Shown here piece after piece: positions 10,664 through 62,255 of a stretch of DNA of 64,000 nucleotides. The number at the start of each line of letters is the position of its first letter. The first letter of the stretch is position 1. The notes under the pieces were generated by a model. That model was not told where the DNA came from and did no database searches. It saw nothing but the letters and a program-made list of their open reading frames with translations. The position numbers were made by a program, and so were the translations under genes. Origin of the DNA: Gracilibacillus suaedae (GTDB lineage Bacteria; Bacillota; Bacilli; Bacillales; Amphibacillaceae); assembly GCF_017599345.1 (NCBI RefSeq), contig NZ_JAGFVL010000060.1, forward strand, positions 1 through 64,000. Direction: 5' to 3'.

Positions 10664-11184
10664 ATGGTTGAAACGAAGGAGAAACTGATAGCAGTTCGAA
10701 ATCTTCAGAAGTCGTATAAAGGCCATAAAGTATTAAAAAATATCAATCTTTCTGTAGAGAAGGGAAGTGTTTTTGCTTTATTGGATTCCAATGGTGCGGG
10801 AAAAACAACGACCATTAAAATACTTTCAACGCTTCTTAATGCAGATAGTGGTTCGGCTGTAATCAATGGATTTAATGTAATGAAGGAGCCGGAACAAGTT
10901 CGTGGAGTGATCAGTTTGACAGGTCAATATGCCGCGGTAGATGAGGGATTAACAGGTAGGGAGAACATCCGCATGATTGGAAAACTTCGTCATTTGCCAC
11001 AAGCAATTAAAAAGTCTGATGAGTTACTTGATGCTGCTGATAGGCGGTTCTTGAAGCTATACGAAGCTTGTTGCTGAGTGAACCTGTCGGTAACAATGTT
11101 TGGATTTCGTTACTATGGTTATTTGGATTGTTGATTGTCACCTATATAGCTTCTGTTCAGGTTTTTAAAAGAAAAACATCCTAA
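10664..11184 (+). pseudogene. Deleted drug-export ABC operon: ATPase N-terminus joined to permease C-terminus
   Basis: ATG 10664 (AAGGAGAATGCC upstream) starts a DrrA-type ABC ATPase: Walker A region LLDSNGAGKTTT, with Asp where Gly is usual, then the Q-loop region SLTGQYAAVDEGLTGRENI. The frame runs to 11077 (137 codons) but leaves the ATPase pattern near codon 125, before the signature motif and Walker B. In another frame 11042-11184 reads AVLEAIRSLLLSEPVGNNVW and then SLLWLFGLLIVTYIASVQVF, the typical C-terminal helix of a DrrB permease. One internal deletion of roughly 1.3 kb, judging from usual DrrAB length, joins the two near 11035-11045. No transport function can remain. Confidence 0.8.
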
Positions 11185-11283
11185 TCTCGTTATGTAATAC
11201 CTCCTTGGGGAAGTTTATAACAGCTATAACAATACAATGAAGGTCAAAGTAATGTATGATGGTATATAGGAGGTGCATCGTTC

Positions 11284-11631
11284 ATGAAAAATAAAGCTTC
11301 CTCTGATTTGCTTAGAGGACATGCAGATACAATTATTTTGAACTTACTAATGAGTGGAGATAAATATGGATATGAAATAACGAAATTAATAGCAGCATAT
11401 TCAGATGGAGAGTATGAGCTGAAAGAGGCCACCATGTATTCAAGTCTGAAGCGTCTGGAGAAGGATGGCAGTATCGTATCCTATTGGGGAGATGAGACCC
11501 AAGGTGGCAGACGTAAATATTACAAGGTTACGGAAAAAGGAAAAGTTAATTATTACGAAAATAAAAGAAACTGGGAAGCAGCCAAACGGATTTTAGATCA
11601 ATTATTAGCGAAAGGTGGAAATGAAAATTGA
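11284..11631 (+). CDS. PadR-family transcriptional regulator
   Basis: 115 residues, standard PadR length. A winged helix-turn-helix (ADTIILNLLMSGDKYGYEIT, then ATMYSSLKRLEKDG and a wing GGRRKYYKVTEKGK) is followed by a short dimerisation helix. It has AGGAGGTG before ATG 11284. It overlaps the next gene, which carries a HAAS domain. PadR/HAAS pairs usually act together, with the PadR protein repressing the operon. Confidence 0.9.
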   Translation: MKNKASSDLLRGHADTIILNLLMSGDKYGYEITKLIAAYSDGEYELKEATMYSSLKRLEKDGSIVSYWGDETQGGRRKYYKVTEKGKVNYYENKRNWEAAKRILDQLLAKGGNEN

Positions 11632-13818: not shown

Positions 13819-13847
13819 TTGACAATTCCAACAAAAGCATGTAAAGT
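13819..13847 (+). promoter_or_regulatory. Candidate promoter for the S-box operon
   Basis: Perfect -35 TTGACA at 13819-13824, a 17-base spacer, and a weak -10 TAAAGT at 13842-13847. It lies 43 bases before the first S-box aptamer. No equally good promoter is seen between the two riboswitches. Confidence 0.45.
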
Positions 13848-13889
13848 ACAGTATATTACTAGGATATAAAAACTGAACATTAATCTTGT

Positions 13890-14001
13890 CTTATCAAGAG
13901 AGGTGGAGGGACTGGCCCAAAGAAGCCTCGGCAACCATTAAGTGTTATTGCTTAATATAGGTGCCAATTCCGTCTGAGTGTTTTCACTTAGAAGAGATAA
14001 G
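13890..14001 (+). promoter_or_regulatory. SAM (S-box) riboswitch 1 of a tandem pair
   Basis: All class SAM-I landmarks are present: P1 5' strand CTTATC, the conserved AAGAGAGGTGGAGGGACTGG core, a GGCAACC segment, AGGTGCCAATTCC, and P1 3' strand GATAAG. The lead-in and core are identical to those of riboswitch 2 for about 29 bases, suggesting a local duplication. A terminator at 14023 is its expression platform. Confidence 0.95.
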
Positions 14002-14022
14002 AGATTCATTGTTACGTAATGT

Positions 14023-14054
14023 ATCTCTCTATCTCCAAATAGAGAGATTTTTTT
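14023..14054 (+). terminator. Terminator of S-box 1
   Basis: Stem ATCTCTCTAT / ATAGAGAGAT with a 6-base loop and a run of seven T. SAM binding to the upstream aptamer should favour it. Confidence 0.9.
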
Positions 14055-14086
14055 ATGATAAGGATTACCAACATTATATCTATAAG

Positions 14087-14188
14087 CTTATCAAGAGAGG
14101 TGGAGGGACTGGCCCTATGAAACCCGGCAACCATTAAGCGATTGCTTAAAAGGTGCTAATTCCAACAGGAGTATTCCTGAAAGATAAG
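14087..14188 (+). promoter_or_regulatory. SAM (S-box) riboswitch 2 of a tandem pair
   Basis: A second full SAM-I aptamer only 85 bases after the first: CTTATC, the same AAGAGAGGTGGAGGGACTGG core, CCTATGAAACCCGGCAACC, AGGTGCTAATTCC, and GATAAG. It is closer to the consensus than copy 1. It has its own terminator at 14200, so transcription must pass two SAM-controlled stops. Confidence 0.96.
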
Positions 14189-14199
14189 AAGAGTAGTAG

Positions 14200-14231
14200 A
14201 GTCCTCTTTTTATCGAAGAGGGCTTTTTTAT
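14200..14231 (+). terminator. Terminator of S-box 2
   Basis: Stem AGTCCTCTT / AAGAGGGCT (one G-T pair) with a 7-base loop and a T-run, 27 bases before the thiolase start codon. Confidence 0.88.
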
Positions 14232-14257
14232 TTAAATAGAAGAAGGAGTAATCATAT

Positions 14258-15424
14258 ATGTCGATTGTTATATTAGACGGGATCCGGACACCTTTTGGAA
14301 AATGGAATGGTGCCCTTGCAGCATTTGATGCGGTAACATTAGCGAGTAAGCCGTTGAACTATTTAATCGAAAAGTATGCAGCAATTCCTCAGATAGATGG
14401 CGTGTTGTTAGCACAAGTTATTCAGGCTGGTCAGGGCCAAAATCCTGCTAGACAAGTTGCATACCAAGCAGGGCTTGATAGTAGAACACCAGCAATCACC
14501 TTAAATAATGTATGTCTCGGAGGAGTTGCCTCTGTCATTGATGCGGCGCGCCGCATTAGATTAGAAGAAGGTTCTTTTTATATTGTTGGTGGCTTTGACT
14601 CGATGTCCAATGCACCACACGTTATCCCGACTAGATCAATCAAAGGTATAGGTCATCAGACGATTACTGATACGTTGTTACATGATGGGCTGTGGTGTGC
14701 TCTGAGTGATCAGTCGATGGGCACATTAACGGAACAATATAATCGTGATTATAACATTAGCCGCAAAGAGCAAGATCAATTTGCAGCTCTCTCTCAACAA
14801 AGAGCAGCAACTGCCTTTGAAAGAGGACTACTGGCGGAAGAAATCCTACCAATCGATAGTGTATTAGCAAATGATGAAGGGTTACGCCCTCAGACAACTA
14901 TAGATAAATTAGCTAATTTAAAACCGGCTTTTACGAACGATGGAACCATTACAGCAGGTAATGCCTCGCAAATGACGGACGGAGCAAGTCTTGGAATTGT
15001 CACAACTTTAGAACAGGCAGAACGGCTCGGAACAGAACCCCTAGCCCATGTTATTGATTGGGCGGAAACGGCTGGTCCTGACGCAAGTCTCCAAACAAAA
15101 CCGGCAGACGCCATTCAAAAAATATTGAATAAACAGCAACTGACAATAAATGATATTGATCTATTTGAAATAAATGAAGCGTTCGCTAGTGTGGTGATCG
15201 CTAGCTGTAAAGCATTAAATATTGGTTATGACAAAGTAAACGTTAATGGAGGAGCTATTGCAATCGGGCATCCACTTGGAGGTACCGGATTTCGTTTAGT
15301 TTTAACATTAGCACATGAATTGAAACGTCGTGGCGGTGGTAAAGGAATAGCTTCCCTATGTGGTGGTGGCGGTCAAGGAATTGCTATTCTTATTGAAGTA
15401 CCAACGGAAGGGGGAAAACAATGA
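14258..15424 (+). CDS. Acetyl-CoA C-acetyltransferase (thiolase)
   Basis: 388 residues, usual thiolase length. Catalytic residues are complete: nucleophile NNVCLGG (C86), EINEAFA, GGAIAIGHPLGGTG (H338) and SLCGGGGQG (C368). It should cleave acetoacetyl-CoA with CoA into two acetyl-CoA, or run the reverse condensation. AAGAAGGAG precedes ATG 14258. It is the first gene of a tightly coupled six-gene operon behind two SAM riboswitches and overlaps the next gene by four bases (ATGA), an acetoacetyl-CoA synthetase that would supply its substrate. Substrate length preference cannot be read from sequence. Confidence 0.9.
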   Translation: MSIVILDGIRTPFGKWNGALAAFDAVTLASKPLNYLIEKYAAIPQIDGVLLAQVIQAGQGQNPARQVAYQAGLDSRTPAITLNNVCLGGVASVIDAARRIRLEEGSFYIVGGFDSMSNAPHVIPTRSIKGIGHQTITDTLLHDGLWCALSDQSMGTLTEQYNRDYNISRKEQDQFAALSQQRAATAFERGLLAEEILPIDSVLANDEGLRPQTTIDKLANLKPAFTNDGTITAGNASQMTDGASLGIVTTLEQAERLGTEPLAHVIDWAETAGPDASLQTKPADAIQKILNKQQLTINDIDLFEINEAFASVVIASCKALNIGYDKVNVNGGAIAIGHPLGGTGFRLVLTLAHELKRRGGGKGIASLCGGGGQGIAILIEVPTEGGKQ

Positions 15425-17352
15425 ATACTCAAACAATAGATAACAAGAGTCATATATTATGGGAACCTGCAGAAAAAGATATTGAACAATCACACCTTCA
15501 AGCTTTTGCTAATTATGTTAATCAAGTACTTTTTCCTTATGAAAGATTACATCGTTGGTCGATTACGAATATCGGGGATTTCTGGTCTGGTGTATGGGAT
15601 TATGCAGGTATTATCGGTGAAAAAGGAGACAGATTCTATGTCCAAGGTGAATCAATGGCAGATGCTGTTTTTTTCCCTGATGCTCAATTAAACTTTGCGG
15701 AGAATCTACTAAAAGGTAAGGATCATCAAATTGCTGCCTATCAAGCAGATGAAACAGGTGTAACAGCTAAGGTTACTTATCAAGACTTACGTACACAAGT
15801 TGCAAAAGCACAGTACGGATTAAAACAATTAGGCGTAAAAAAAGGAGATCGCGTAGCGGGGATTACTACTAATAATATAGCAGGATTAGTCGCTTTACTT
15901 GCTGCAACATCACTTGGAGCAGTTTGGACCTCCTGTTCACCAGATTTTGGTGCGAAAGGAATTATCGATCGAATTGGTCAAGTGCAACCGAAAGTCCTAA
16001 TCGCGAATCTAAAGTATCAGTATAAACAAAAACCTTTTGATATTTCGAAAAAAGTACAAGAAACAGTTGAGCAGATTACTAGCATTAATCACATCATAAC
16101 CATTGCGGGAGAACTAGCTAACTCGATCACTTGGTCATCTCTACTCGAAAACGATGCGAAGGAACCAGAGTTTGAAAGAACTGAATTTCGTGATCCGCTA
16201 TATATTCTTTATACATCTGGAACGACAGGATTGCCTAAGGCAATTGTTCACTCTGTAGGTGGCACGTTACTACAACATGTGAAAGAACATCAATTGCATT
16301 GTGATGTACATGAAGAAGATGTGCTTTTTTGGTATTCCAACACTGCATGGATGATGTATCCATGGCTTGTATCTGGTTTGGCTAGTAATGCTTCCCTTTT
16401 ATTATATGATGGTTCTCCAGTATTACCAAATAATCCAACGCATTTATGGGACATTGCTGAAGGAATCGGACTGACGCACTTTGGCACGAGTCCAAAGTAT
16501 TTAGATTCATTGATGAAAGCAAATGTTGTCCTGAAAGATCGGTATCCATTAACTTCCTTAAAAAGTATCCTTTCCTGTGGTGCACCGCTAGTAGCTGAAC
16601 AATATGATTGGGTATATGAGACGATTAAAGAAGATTTTTACTTAGCATCTATCTCAGGAGGTACAGAGATTATTGGATGTTTTGTCATGGGTTCTCCAAT
16701 TCACCCAGTTTTCCGCGGAGAGATTAGTTGTAAAGCATTAGGGATGGCGATGGAAGTGTTAGATGAACGTGATGCACCTGTCTATGGTCAAAAGGGAGAT
16801 CTTGTCTGTACACAGCCTTTTCCAAGCATGCCACTAACATTTTATGGTGAGAATGGTGACGAACGTTATCGTACCAATTATTTTGCTGAACGACCAGGTA
16901 TTTGGACACATGGTGATTTTGCCGAACAAACTATTGATCAATCGTTTATTATCTATGGCCGTGCAGATACTGTCCTAAATCCGGGTGGTGTGCGAATTGG
17001 GACTGCAGAGATTTATAGTGTTGTAGAACAAATCGAAGAAATTAAAGATTCGATCGTGTTTGGCTTACCATGTGAAAATGATGAAGAGATTGTGTTATGT
17101 GTTGTAACCGATCAGTTAACGAAAGAACTAGCCAAGCATATTCGACAACAAATACGAGAAAAAGCATCACCACGCCATGTTCCAAGACGAATTTATCAGG
17201 TGAAGGATATACCATACACGGTCAACGGTAAGAAAGTCGAAGGTGCTGCAAAAACAGAAGCGATTGGTAATGAAGTCCAGAACAAAGCTTCTATTAGTAA
17301 TCCTGAATGCTTACAAGAATTAACAGATATTAAAGAGAAGGAGTGCTACTAA
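15421..17352 (+). CDS. Acetoacetate-CoA ligase (acetoacetyl-CoA synthetase)
   Basis: 643 residues, matching the family (about 650). Segments diagnostic of AACS rather than general acyl-CoA ligases include FWSGVWDYAGIIG, a FPDAQLNFAENLL motif and AVWTSCSPDFG. ATP-binding P-loop YTSGTTGLPK is at about 264-273, ISGGTEI is present, then YGRADTVLNPGGVRIG, and the catalytic lysine lies in NGKKVEGAAK near the end. It converts acetoacetate, ATP and CoA to acetoacetyl-CoA, AMP and PPi in the cytosol. It overlaps the thiolase by four bases and the next gene by one, so stoichiometric expression is likely. A related small 3-oxo or sulfur-containing acid could be the true substrate, given the SAM riboswitch control. 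Confidence 0.9.
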   Translation: MNTQTIDNKSHILWEPAEKDIEQSHLQAFANYVNQVLFPYERLHRWSITNIGDFWSGVWDYAGIIGEKGDRFYVQGESMADAVFFPDAQLNFAENLLKGKDHQIAAYQADETGVTAKVTYQDLRTQVAKAQYGLKQLGVKKGDRVAGITTNNIAGLVALLAATSLGAVWTSCSPDFGAKGIIDRIGQVQPKVLIANLKYQYKQKPFDISKKVQETVEQITSINHIITIAGELANSITWSSLLENDAKEPEFERTEFRDPLYILYTSGTTGLPKAIVHSVGGTLLQHVKEHQLHCDVHEEDVLFWYSNTAWMMYPWLVSGLASNASLLLYDGSPVLPNNPTHLWDIAEGIGLTHFGTSPKYLDSLMKANVVLKDRYPLTSLKSILSCGAPLVAEQYDWVYETIKEDFYLASISGGTEIIGCFVMGSPIHPVFRGEISCKALGMAMEVLDERDAPVYGQKGDLVCTQPFPSMPLTFYGENGDERYRTNYFAERPGIWTHGDFAEQTIDQSFIIYGRADTVLNPGGVRIGTAEIYSVVEQIEEIKDSIVFGLPCENDEEIVLCVVTDQLTKELAKHIRQQIREKASPRHVPRRIYQVKDIPYTVNGKKVEGAAKTEAIGNEVQNKASISNPECLQELTDIKEKECY

Positions 17353-18512
17353 TGGTGAAACGACCGAAAGGCGCAATTATCGGTATCGGTGAACTAAAGC
17401 CAGTACGGTACTCTGAAGGGAAAACGACGTTAGGATTAATAGCGGAATCTGTTCAGTTTGCATTAGCGGATGCCGGTCTAACGAAAGATGAAATCGATGG
17501 ACTATTAGTAGGACCCCAAGTAGGTGAAACGCCACAACACGTACCTGCAACAGTGTCAGAATATTTAGGCATTTCTCCGATTATGTCCAACACTGTTGAT
17601 CTAGGAGGAGCGACTGGTGCGGGAATGGTTTGGCGGGCAGCTGCGGCGATTGAAGTAGGAATGTGTGAAACAGTCGTCTGTGTATTAGCTAATAAAAATG
17701 AAAAAGGACAGGTACCACGCTCACCGAACCGTAATCCAATTCGTGAATTTGATGTTCCGTTTGGTGCTTCAGGCGCAAATACGTCCTATGCATTGTTAAA
17801 AAGAGAGCATATGGAATTATATGGATCTAAACAAGAAGATTTTGCGAGAATTGCGTATTGGTCTAGAAAAAATGCACTAAAAAATCCGAAAGCAATCTTT
17901 TATGATAAGCCAGTTGAGTTAGATGATATTTTGCGATCACCAATTATATCGGATCCATTAAGACTGTTAGAAATTGTTATGCCATGTGCGGGTGGAGCAG
18001 CCGTGATTGTTACTTCAGAGGAAAAAGCAAAGCAAACAAAGAAAAAGCCGGTCTATTTAAAAGGGGCAGGGGAAAAAATCACTCATCGTGCGGTTAGTCA
18101 AGCCCCGGCAATTGATCAGTTACCTTTTACCTATTCGATTCCACAAGCCTTACATCAGGCAGGAATTAACGGGGAAGATGTAGATTTGTTATCACTTTAT
18201 GATTGTTATACAAGTGTTGTAGCGGTGCAGCTAGAAAGCATCGGGATATGTAAGCAAGGCGAGTTCGGTGATTTTGTCCGAAGTCATACTTTTGATCATG
18301 ATGGCGATTATCCTCTCAATACCCATGGTGGTCAACTAGGCTTTGGCCAAGCCGATTTAGCCGGAGGAATGTCACATATTATTGAAGCAGTCATTCAATT
18401 ACGCGGTGAAGGTGGAGACCGACAAATTGCTGATGTTAAACATGCACTTGTGACAGGAAATGGAGCGACATTAAGCGAAACAACTGCTTTAGTTTTAGGA
18501 GGAGAGCAATGA
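17352..18512 (+). CDS. Thiolase-fold protein of SCP-x/lipid-transfer type, lacking catalytic cysteines
   Basis: 386 residues; ATG 17352 overlaps the preceding stop (TAATG) and has AGGAG 8 bases upstream. The fold markers are there (AIIGIGELKPVRYSEGKTTL, LSLYDCYTSVV, NTHGGQLGFGQADLAGGM). However, the position of the thiolase nucleophile reads DLGGATGAG with no Cys, and the C-terminal CGGGG loop reads GNGATLS, also without Cys. So it is unlikely to be a thiolase. The family includes Ltp2-type retro-aldolases, which lack these cysteines and need a DUF35 partner; a DUF35 protein is encoded directly downstream with a four-base overlap. A retro-aldol role on a 3-hydroxyacyl-CoA is a reasonable inference; a purely structural or acyl-transfer role is also possible. 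Confidence 0.8.
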   Translation: MVKRPKGAIIGIGELKPVRYSEGKTTLGLIAESVQFALADAGLTKDEIDGLLVGPQVGETPQHVPATVSEYLGISPIMSNTVDLGGATGAGMVWRAAAAIEVGMCETVVCVLANKNEKGQVPRSPNRNPIREFDVPFGASGANTSYALLKREHMELYGSKQEDFARIAYWSRKNALKNPKAIFYDKPVELDDILRSPIISDPLRLLEIVMPCAGGAAVIVTSEEKAKQTKKKPVYLKGAGEKITHRAVSQAPAIDQLPFTYSIPQALHQAGINGEDVDLLSLYDCYTSVVAVQLESIGICKQGEFGDFVRSHTFDHDGDYPLNTHGGQLGFGQADLAGGMSHIIEAVIQLRGEGGDRQIADVKHALVTGNGATLSETTALVLGGEQ

Positions 18513-18919
18513 CGAACATATCATTTCCGGAACCAACGATTACAGCAGTAAGTAAGCCTTTTTGGGATAAGATTAACGAAAAGCAATTTTATCTACAGCA
18601 ATGTAATGATTGTACGCAATGGGTTTTCTATCCACGCGCACATTGTCCCAACTGTTTTAGCTCGAAGCTAACGTGGAAAGAGACATCGGGACAAGGTAAG
18701 TTAAAATCTTGGAGTATTGTCCATCGAGCAGGACATCCTGCTTGGCAAGAACGAACACCATATGCAGTAGGGATTGTCCAATTAGCCGAGGGACCATCCT
18801 TACTCACACATTTGCTAATCGATGAACAGGAATTACGTTATCAGTTACCAGTACAAATATCCTTTCAGCAATTAAATGAACGGTTATTACCATTTTTCAA
18901 AAGAAAGGGGAGTAAGTGA
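18509..18919 (+). CDS. DUF35 / Zn-ribbon OB-fold acyl-CoA-associated protein
   Basis: 136 residues. Residues 30-56 contain a rubredoxin-like zinc ribbon (CNDC then HCPNCFSSKL), and residues 65-125 an OB-fold (GKLKSWSIVHRAGHPAW, PYAVGIVQLAEGP). Proteins of this type bind CoA substrates and form complexes with thiolase-fold enzymes (HMG-CoA synthase/thiolase in archaea, Ltp2 aldolases in actinobacteria). The overlap with the cysteine-less thiolase-like gene strongly suggests such a complex here. Confidence 0.87.
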   Translation: MTNISFPEPTITAVSKPFWDKINEKQFYLQQCNDCTQWVFYPRAHCPNCFSSKLTWKETSGQGKLKSWSIVHRAGHPAWQERTPYAVGIVQLAEGPSLLTHLLIDEQELRYQLPVQISFQQLNERLLPFFKRKGSK

Positions 18920-19002
18920 TGATTTATACGTATCTCATTTTAGTTGTCGTATTTTGGATTATCGGACTGACGATTTGGAACAAGTTCTACAAAAATAATT
19001 AA
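18919..19002 (+). CDS. Symporter small accessory protein (27 residues)
   Basis: ATG 18919 overlaps the DUF35 stop (TGATG) with GGGGAG just upstream. The product is one transmembrane helix with a short basic tail (IYTYLILVVVFWIIGLTIW then NKFYKNN). Tiny single-helix proteins of this pattern precede many bacterial sodium:solute symporter genes and are annotated as symporter small accessory proteins. The symporter gene begins 13 bases later. Confidence 0.78.
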   Translation: MIYTYLILVVVFWIIGLTIWNKFYKNN

Positions 19003-19015
19003 AGGTGGTATTGGC

Positions 19016-20512
19016 ATGTTAACGGAATCTAGTTTACTTCTTTGGACTGTTATTATATTATTAGTTGCTTATTTTGGTGTTGTAACATGGATTGGAAAAA
19101 AAGGAAGTGCCCATAGTAAATCGATGAACGGATTTGCAACCGCTAGAGGGAAGGTCAGCCCTTGGCTTGTAGGAGCTAGTTTTGCTGCATCTTATTCTAG
19201 TGCAAATCTTTTTATTGGAGTTCCTGGATTAGCCTATCAACATGGTACTTCCGTTTTATGGTATACATTAGGGTGTTTTGGTGTTTCATGGGTCGGTCTA
19301 TTAATTTTCGCAAAAACATTTTGGCGTTATGGCAAGAAATTCGGACGAGTTTCTACTGTACCTGAGTGGTTAGGACGTCGATATAATTCGAGAACATTAC
19401 AAGTCATCGTCTCTCTTTTGATATTATTTAATGTATATTATATTGTTGGTCAAAATGTCGGACTTGCTACAATTTTTGAGACGGTAATTGGTATTCCTTA
19501 TTTCTGGGGAATTATTATCGGAGTAGCTATTACGATTTTATATATTGGTTTAGGTGGAGCATTTGCTCAGATGATTACGGACGGTATTCAGGGATTGTTT
19601 ATGGCTTTAGCTTCCATTCTTATTTTTATTTCGTTCTTTTGGACAATCGGTGGCGGTATCAACGTGTTCGGGGAATTGACTAATCAACTGAATGCAGTAG
19701 ATCCCAATCTAACCACTTTTGTTGGCGTTGATGGACCGTATAACAGTGTGTTAGCGATTATGGCTGTACAATTTTTATTATTCAGTTTTATCCTTATGCC
19801 ACACTTGTTGAACAAAATTTTATCAATTGAAACAGAGGAAGAGCTTGCACCATTTACCTTATCATCGGGAATTGTATTATTCGTCATTTCTACTTTGATG
19901 GTGCTTGGTGGTTTAGCTGCACGGGTACTTTTTCCAACATTGAATAGTGCAGATTCAGCCATCCCAATGTATGTGATCGAATCATTCCCTAGTATTATTG
20001 CCGCGATTATGATTGTAGGTATTATTTCGGCGATCCTCTCCAGTACAGATAGCTTATACTTAGGTGTAACAACTAGTATTGGGAATGACTTTTACAAAGT
20101 ATTGGCACCAGTATTCAAAAAGAATATAAGCCAAGCGAAATTAGATTTACAATCAGTGAAAGTAGCAAAAGGATCGCTCATTTTAGTAGGACTCTTATCA
20201 TTATATATTTCATTAGATCGCCCGGATTCCTTGTCAATCTTAATCCAATTCAGCTTTTCCGCGATCATTTCAGGAATATTAGCACCTATAACATTAGGCT
20301 ACTTTTGGAAAAAAGCAACAAACTATGGTGCGATTGCAGCAGTGATCACAGGTGCAGCCTTGTATGTGATCTTTACACAATTTAATGTGATTGCAAATAT
20401 TTATCTAGCGATGTTCTTTGCTTCCTTAGCTTCATTTATCGTAATGGGGGTTATCGGCTTATTAACAGCTACGGAAGAACATGAAGAATTAGTGTTAAAG
20501 AAAATTAGCTAA
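19016..20512 (+). CDS. Sodium:solute symporter (SSS/SLC5 family)
   Basis: 498 residues with about 13 hydrophobic helices. The family pattern is clear: GFATARGKVSPWLVGASFAA (substrate-site helix 1), SSANLFIGVPGLAYQ, helix-2 region WRYGKKFGRVSTVPEWLGRR, LGGAFAQMITDGIQG and SAILSSTDSLYLGVTTSIG. The ASFAASYSSAN and SSTDS motifs correspond to sodium-site residues in the LeuT fold. As last gene of the S-box operon it probably imports the carboxylate or amino-acid substrate of the enzymes upstream; the substrate is not readable. AAAGGTGG is the ribosome site. Confidence 0.9.
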   Translation: MLTESSLLLWTVIILLVAYFGVVTWIGKKGSAHSKSMNGFATARGKVSPWLVGASFAASYSSANLFIGVPGLAYQHGTSVLWYTLGCFGVSWVGLLIFAKTFWRYGKKFGRVSTVPEWLGRRYNSRTLQVIVSLLILFNVYYIVGQNVGLATIFETVIGIPYFWGIIIGVAITILYIGLGGAFAQMITDGIQGLFMALASILIFISFFWTIGGGINVFGELTNQLNAVDPNLTTFVGVDGPYNSVLAIMAVQFLLFSFILMPHLLNKILSIETEEELAPFTLSSGIVLFVISTLMVLGGLAARVLFPTLNSADSAIPMYVIESFPSIIAAIMIVGIISAILSSTDSLYLGVTTSIGNDFYKVLAPVFKKNISQAKLDLQSVKVAKGSLILVGLLSLYISLDRPDSLSILIQFSFSAIISGILAPITLGYFWKKATNYGAIAAVITGAALYVIFTQFNVIANIYLAMFFASLASFIVMGVIGLLTATEEHEELVLKKIS

Positions 20513-20525
20513 AACATGATTGGAG

Positions 20526-20554
20526 AGAGCTGACGTTTAAGTCAGCTCTTTTTA
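20526..20554 (+). terminator. Terminator of the S-box operon
   Basis: Stem AGAGCTGAC / GTCAGCTCT with a 6-base loop followed by a T-run. Confidence 0.85.
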
Positions 20555-20612
20555 AATGTTCTTTCCATTGGATGATGTAATAATGATATTATGGAAATGC
20601 ATTCATAAGTTT

Positions 20613-62108: not shown

Positions 62109-62124
62109 AATTATTCGTTGTCCT

Positions 62125-62227
62125 CTTATCTTTCAAAGCAAAACGCTTTGATGGAATTAGCACCTATCAGCTTTAACTGACGGTTGCCGGGTTTCATAGG
62201 GCCATTCCCTCCACCACTCTTGATAAG
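62125..62227 (-). promoter_or_regulatory. SAM (S-box) riboswitch upstream of metNIQ
   Basis: Minus strand: CTTATC, AAGAGTGGTGGAGGGAATGG core, CCTATGAAACCCGGCAACC, AGGTGCTAATTCC and GATAAG, with a terminator downstream. It is a classical SAM-I element that switches off methionine import when SAM is plentiful. Confidence 0.97.
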
Positions 62228-62255
62228 AGCTATCATATACAAATTCATAACCAAT

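Follow-up and report, generated by a model that had tools for sequence, protein, structure and literature searches.

A tandem S-box leader precedes a putative hydroxy-acid activation and cleavage operon in Gracilibacillus suaedae and its relatives

The first 64,000 nucleotides of contig NZ_JAGFVL010000060.1 of Gracilibacillus suaedae (forward strand; this whole stretch is referred to here as the window) contain a unit of five genes on the plus strand, ending near position 20555, that is preceded by two S-adenosylmethionine (SAM) riboswitches of the S-box type in series. The genes encode a thiolase, a coenzyme A (CoA) ligase, a thiolase-fold aldolase, its DUF35 partner and a sodium symporter; as the initial annotation of this DNA had pointed out, none is a recognised methionine gene in spite of the two well-formed S-boxes in front of them. 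We propose, tentatively, that this is a SAM-repressed operon for the uptake, CoA activation and retro-aldol cleavage of a hydroxy acid, and that its products feed methionine synthesis. Directly computed were the two switches, their conserved association with the module, the link to metY, the aldolase-type active site and the divergence of the ligase.

The leader and the genes behind it

The features of the leader and the operon are as follows.

13819-13847, plus strand: promoter-like site TTGACA-17-TAAAGT, a candidate only (three such sites against 2.6 expected)
13888-14003, plus strand: S-box (SAM-I) aptamer 1, RF00162 full length, 84.6 bits
14023-14048, plus strand: intrinsic terminator 1, hairpin and T run, fold z -2.7
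14085-14190, plus strand: S-box (SAM-I) aptamer 2, RF00162 full length, 88.4 bits
14198-14226, plus strand: intrinsic terminator 2, hairpin and T run, fold z -4.5
14258-15424, plus strand: thiolase of the acetyl-CoA C-acyltransferase family, catalytic motifs kept (TIGR01930, 412 bits, cut-off 240.55; alignment to 5lp7)
15421-17352, plus strand: AMP-forming CoA ligase of the acetoacetyl-CoA synthetase (AACS) family, diverged from AACS outside the module (TIGR01217, 698.9 bits, cut-off 520.9; 33 group-specific positions)
17343-18512, plus strand: putative Sal-type thiolase-fold aldolase, YDCY at residues 286-289 (PDB match, alignment, fold comparison)
18509-18919, plus strand: DUF35 partner, ChsH2-type zinc ribbon and OB fold, Cys4 motif (PF12172 and PF01796; sequence)
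19016-20512, plus strand: SSS-family sodium:solute symporter (PF00474)
20520-20555, plus strand: terminator-like hairpin closing the operon (hairpin search; one found against 0.9 expected, weak as lone evidence)

The two S-boxes, each complete and with its own terminator, are as first described: both exceed the RF00162 gathering score of 44.4 bits by a wide margin, and the leader contains two terminator-like hairpins with T runs where shuffled sequences give a mean of 0.2. The 3′ strand of helix P1 of each aptamer can pair with an arm of the next terminator (-13.9 and -13.4 kcal/mol for boxes 1 and 2 respectively), which is the usual antiterminator geometry. When the 5′ half of the aptamer is left out of the fold, the antiterminator is the minimum-energy structure in box 1 and not in box 2, where in isolation it is weaker than its terminator. 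A covariance check of the SAM pocket had been called for, and the conserved core columns, including those of the ligand pocket, are invariant or nearly so across 34 S-boxes. With the RF00162 score, the pocket core (J1/2 and the P3 loop), a terminator and a competing antiterminator all present, both elements are, by sequence and fold, predicted off-switches of the SAM-I class. Tandem SAM-I riboswitches are known in number, with 164 doubles given in excerpts of one report (PMC9481103), and sharper repression is the published expectation for them. The leader described here shares with the tandem SAM-I elements of Bacillota the same RF00162 aptamers, their own terminators in series and the off-switch architecture, but differs in that none of the genes of its target operon is known as a gene for methionine, cysteine or SAM.

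The first three gene junctions are overlaps and the last gap, before the symporter, is 96 nt. The third gene (gene 3) is annotated as a thiolase-like protein (SCP2-type thiolase), yet its best sequence match in the PDB, at 304 bits, is 9MYR, a structure of Sal, the side-chain aldolase of Comamonas, together with its partner's DUF35 domain. According to excerpts of the description of Sal (PMC12329534), Tyr302 and Cys304 of its YDCY motif are catalytic, Gln347 and Gln352 neighbour the cysteine, and a glycine replaces the thiolase nucleophile. The aligned residues in gene 3 are Y286, C288, Q331 and Q336, with VDLGG at the nucleophile position, and the YDCY motif, both glutamines and VDLGG are invariant in all 28 aligned rows. 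The nucleophilic cysteine of thiolases is absent, so that gene 3 does not qualify as an SCP2-type thiolase, and together with YDCY, the two glutamines and an adjoining DUF35 gene this absence is what is expected of a Sal-type DUF35 aldolase. Fold comparison of a predicted structure, built from 25 sequences with a mean predicted local distance difference test score (pLDDT) of 80.6 (a first model, from 16 sequences, was of low quality at a mean pLDDT of 64), places 9MYR and two chains of 6OK1, the two known DUF35 aldolases, in the top three positions.

Neither known enzyme is a complete parallel. The bile-acid side-chain aldolase Sal-Shy(DUF35) of Comamonas testosteroni shares the YDCY motif, the glutamines, the glycine at the nucleophile position and a DUF35 partner with the window protein, as far as excerpts of PMC12329534 describe it, whereas the window has a separate DUF35 protein with a Cys4 zinc motif, an active-site loop that is nearly invariant and shorter than the flexible loop of Sal, and a pairing with an AACS-family ligase. 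The steroid features of Sal, a long beta4-alpha4 loop and a Cys3His1 zinc finger in DUF35, are absent, and no steroid genes were seen beside the window module. The steroid aldolase Ltp2-ChsH2(DUF35) (6OK1), the second and third fold match, also has a DUF35 partner, but it uses YDHF and a second tyrosine (excerpts of PMC12329534), both of which the window protein lacks. Because of the shorter, nearly invariant loop and the Cys4 motif a steroid substrate appears unlikely. We therefore regard gene 3, from its residues, as Sal-type and Sal-like in mechanism without filing it as a steroid enzyme, and it probably acts as an aldolase that splits the CoA ester of the imported acid.

The ligase matches the AACS family over its whole length (TIGR01217; 4WD1), as the initial annotation held. 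However, comparison of 43 ligases from Firmicutes versions of the module with 15 AACS sequences from the same order that lie outside it reveals 33 positions that are fixed at ≥90% in each group and yet differ, so that the near-fixed residues of the module ligases are not those of other AACS; at 27 of the 33 the commonest residue among 14 module ligases from other phyla agrees with the Firmicutes module. They include positions 307-314, 358 and 416-418, which we take, though not from a structure, to be the usual acyl-pocket region of such ligases. Because of these 33 differences it is doubtful that acetoacetate is the substrate, and with gene 3 being of the Sal type and lacking the thiolase nucleophile, the description of the operon as one of acetoacetyl-CoA or ketone metabolism is not supported. 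The symporter had no NCBIfam equivalog match above its cut-off.

Conservation of the S-box link and origin of the leader

Among 150 related genomes there are 16 orthologues of gene 3 at ≥72% identity (one of them split in its assembly), the next homologues being at ≤37%; the closest named orthologue is from G. lacisalsi. One or two S-boxes precede the module in all 15 relatives for which upstream DNA is available, seven of them in tandem and eight singly (RF00162); the sixteenth was left out because its contig ends inside the ligase gene. A named collection yielded 130 relatives, and we kept the best 80, 43 of them from Firmicutes and 37 from elsewhere. These loci come in part from the same genomes as the 15 relatives, and the two counts are not additive. 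One cut Firmicutes locus (L149) was left out, and 38 of the other 42 have an S-box before the module (30 tandem, 8 single) according to a model built from 34 S-boxes. Elements from five of the 42 loci (L094, L095, L106, L110 and L111), from L108 and from other genomes that are also represented in the named collection contributed to that model and match it by construction; an independent Rfam run on 12 of the 42 loci found S-boxes in eight and none in four, in agreement with our own model.

The S-box link persists across these Firmicutes loci despite changes in the first gene, the gene order and the transporter. The ligase, aldolase and DUF35 genes form the constant core of the module, with DUF35 adjoining the aldolase in 42 of 42 loci, and no thiolase gene was found beside the core in four (L077, L080, L082 and L106); cleavage by the thiolase, as originally suggested, fits poorly with this pattern. 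A search for S-boxes upstream of AACS-type genes had been proposed as a test; none was found in the 38 loci outside the searched Firmicutes set (37 from outside the Firmicutes and one Rhodococcus plasmid), nor in the flanks, up to ∼1.5 kb, of 15 non-module AACS loci of the same order, these being the matches that were given loci rather than all such matches.

The four Firmicutes loci lacking an S-box are those of Oceanobacillus rekensis (L103), of Cytobacillus citreus (L113) and of two Bacillus strains in which the locus is a second copy (L104 and L105). The last three carry genes for MaoC, a major facilitator superfamily (MFS) transporter and an ArsR-type regulator with a rhodanese domain, which adjoins the module copies (L104:9131-9793, L105:14758-15420 and L113:15852-16532; identified with Pfam in L104 and by similarity in the other two) and is a possible second link to sulfur. 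In Heyndrickxia sporothermodurans the S-box is separated from the ligase gene by open reading frames (ORFs) that, judged by eye, resemble transposases (L110:6315-8043), and SAM control may be interrupted there.

In six of the 42 loci, from Bacillus timonensis, Bacillus sp. HNG and Fredinandcohnia, metY is the first gene after the tandem S-box and is followed by the genes for the ligase, the aldolase, DUF35, an MHS-type transporter and the thiolase, in this order. In the genome that contains the window (4.65 Mb, 14 S-boxes) metY is elsewhere, behind a tandem S-box of its own and with SsuABC-like and AcsA-like genes. The leader of that operon is nonetheless homologous to the leader in the window: the two are collinear over both aptamers and both terminators, with 74% identity over 369 columns (E 1e-57). 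In G. dipsosauri, too, the leader in front of metY matches that of the window, and metY of G. orientalis has a single S-box. Sharing a leader type, and in six loci an operon, with a known methionine gene is what is expected of a member of the methionine/cysteine S-box regulon.

In a tree of S-boxes (115 columns for 62 rows, with many open forks), the first box of the window and the first box of the metY leader from the same genome share a supported set (98/94), to which box 2 of the window does not belong; box 2 of the metY leader groups weakly with Halobacillus box 2 (88/68). Because the leaders are collinear and the two first boxes group together, the tandem arrangement appears to be a leader type shared with metY, with the window leader a paralogue of the metY leader, and we reject recent doubling of one S-box as its main origin. 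The identity of 29 bases between the two boxes, which had been taken as a sign of duplication, is exact (starting at 13890 and 14087). Identical runs of 20-24 bases also occur in other S-box pairs of this genome, and in 18 of the 20 further tandem pairs that were compared only 8-18 bases are identical; the identity reflects mainly the core that S-boxes have in common, perhaps together with local conversion. On the same tree module box 1 requires six changes, at least five of them forced by well-supported branches, albeit from few columns, which hints that S-box control of the module has been renewed more than once.

The metY operon of this genome (L063:5821-14646; G000:C26) consists of the tandem S-box, a metY gene fused to a CoA_binding_2 domain, the SsuABC-like transporter and the AcsA-like ligase, which matches acetate-CoA ligase (PRK04319, 793.5 against a cut-off of 729). 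Further along there is another S-box, followed by a gene resembling flavin mononucleotide (FMN)-dependent hydroxyacid oxidases and by lactate dehydrogenase. An FMN hydroxyacid-oxidase-like gene also follows a second set of methionine transporter genes behind an S-box (L066:5050-8899; G000:C59), and may point to the use of methionine hydroxy analogues.

Possible roles of the operon

We infer the reaction, its direction and the class of substrate as follows. When SAM is low, read-through at both S-boxes would allow the importer, the ligase, the Sal-type aldolase with DUF35 and the thiolase to be made. The sodium-coupled symporter would bring in a short, polar beta-hydroxy carboxylate, the ligase would convert it to its CoA ester, and retro-aldol cleavage by Sal-DUF35 would yield acetyl-CoA and an aldehyde or ketone, with the thiolase, where it is present, taking care of a beta-keto form. 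The released fragment, or a product made from it, would supply sulfur or methyl groups for methionine alongside MetY. Because S-box control is kept through reordered operons and is coupled to metY, such a supply is the likeliest purpose. The initial annotation had offered two alternatives, a methionine-linked compound or SAM control of ketone metabolism; the first has become the likelier, given metY within the operon and the paralogous leaders, and the second has lost ground.

In its most specific form, which we regard as possible but rather improbable, the proposal is an undescribed methionine salvage route: on SAM starvation a beta-hydroxy acid carrying sulfur or methyl groups would be taken up by these Bacillaceae, salt-loving relatives of Bacillus, and linked to CoA, after which the thiolase-fold aldolase would free an aldehyde for methionine. 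Gonyol and carnitine are zwitterionic beta-hydroxy acids and for this reason are named as candidates, along with a methylthio hydroxy acid; cleavage would give dimethylsulfoniopropionaldehyde from gonyol and betaine aldehyde from carnitine, and nothing favours one of the three directly. Excerpts of one study (PMC7221440) report that gonyol is consumed by marine bacteria and that release of methanethiol from it is likely in one species; no pathway is named in these excerpts. We also considered, as ideas, that the Sal-like protein might release a thiol by beta-elimination and that 2-deoxyribonate, mevalonate or 3-hydroxybutyrate might be the substrate. A SAM riboswitch before a ligase-Sal-DUF35 module was not found described in the open-licence literature, which does not show its absence from print, and neither "acetoacet" nor "thiolase" occurs in the excerpts of PMC3766115 and PMC12452182.

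On the proposed reading the SAM riboswitch regulon would be extended by an operon that is conserved but non-classical and that brings its own importer and a C-C cleaving enzyme, and a shared leader puts two operons under the same tandem switch. DUF35 aldolases of the Sal type, which were described for steroids, would extend into apparent small-molecule metabolism in several phyla, and conserved S-box control offers low methionine as a handle for finding the substrate.

The main evidence against this reading comes from the gene company of the core outside the Firmicutes. Its neighbours in Rhizobiales, Sulfitobacter, Marinomonas and Paraburkholderia are genes for MaoC, for an MFS transporter, for a GntR regulator, for a short-chain dehydrogenase/reductase (SDR) and for a fuculose-phosphate-type aldolase, as well as for a ribose-type ATP-binding cassette (ABC) transporter and a PfkB kinase, and sometimes for a flavin monooxygenase and an aldehyde dehydrogenase. 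These neighbours look like sugar or polyol catabolism and not sulfur metabolism; their company argues for a general activate-and-cleave cassette for hydroxy acids and against a purely sulfur-specific module, and the clusters point to a sugar, polyol or aldehyde. Several smaller points count in the same direction. No protein of the window handles sulfur by itself, four Firmicutes loci lack the S-box, and the promoter-like sites are not above chance in number. In addition, thiolases also match the gene 3 model, with template modelling (TM) scores of about 0.8, so that fold alone does not separate an aldolase from a thiolase.

The conserved cluster of ligase, Sal, DUF35, MaoC, MFS, GntR, SDR, FucA-type aldolase, ribose-type ABC transporter and PfkB genes, seen on a Sulfitobacter dubius plasmid (L165:8331-29081) and at other non-Firmicutes loci, is probably an undescribed catabolic route in its own right. 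The aldehyde dehydrogenases of the non-Firmicutes clusters score best against betaine-aldehyde dehydrogenase (400, 405 and 427.8 against a cut-off of 668.6), and their flavin monooxygenases against trimethylamine monooxygenase in two loci and ArsO in another; all are far under the cut-offs and are weak hints. In Rhodococcus the core is accompanied by MFS genes, MaoC, a thiolase and a more distant ligase, which on the Rhodococcus opacus plasmid (L166) is closer to acetate-CoA ligase, and in a Verrucomicrobiota contig a sugar ABC transporter (by eye) and a cupin gene lie upstream of the module. Rfam detected no other RNA switches in six non-Firmicutes loci.

Four further explanations bear on the S-box link. 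The operon could break down a carbon compound simply to provide acetyl-CoA for the acylation of homoserine in methionine synthesis. The retro-aldol and thiolase steps would each give acetyl-CoA, MetY releases acetate, and the metY operon of the same genome includes both a metY with a fused CoA-binding domain and the acetate-CoA ligase; we nevertheless consider this unlikely, in that acetyl-CoA is seldom the limiting precursor and making it with an importer and an aldolase kept for this purpose would be expensive.

Regulatory hitch-hiking, in which the module landed behind a metY-type leader and S-box control is not adaptive, agrees with the homology of the leaders, with the six loci where metY is still the first gene, and with the occurrence of the module outside the Firmicutes without an S-box. 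But the S-box is found directly upstream despite differing first genes and transporters, and the repeated changes of box 1 on the tree, although drawn from few columns, suggest repeated re-acquisition, so that on balance we find this improbable.

Just as improbable is the use of ketone bodies under SAM control, by which the symporter would import acetoacetate, AACS activate it and the thiolase convert it to two acetyl-CoA, with SAM status as the gate. The ligase does lie above the AACS cut-off, the thiolase with its catalytic motifs is present, and the Sulfitobacter cluster has a gene resembling short-chain-acid transporters (TIGR00366, 405 against a cut-off of 575.75). This scheme leaves the constant pair of aldolase and DUF35 unexplained, however, and it has to contend with the near-fixed differences in the ligase, with the loci where no thiolase was found and with the lack of S-boxes at the 15 other AACS loci.

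That the aptamers have been altered to sense another ligand such as spermidine is very hard to credit: SAM-I variants that sense spermidine are known, including one from Oceanobacillus, but those covered in excerpts of PMC10853860 change J1/2 and the P3 internal loop, whereas the core columns are (nearly) invariant here and both boxes are well above the RF00162 cut-off.

Other features of the window

An ABC ATPase ORF of 137 aa lies upstream of the leader, at 10664-11284. Its relative in G. lacisalsi has 313 aa, and the 254-aa permease that comes after it has no counterpart beside the window ORF; by comparison this transporter appears to be decayed or deleted. One more S-box is present near the right end of the window.

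62123-62229, minus strand: third S-box (RF00162)

It precedes metN, metI and metQ-type genes (named by eye), an ordinary S-box target.

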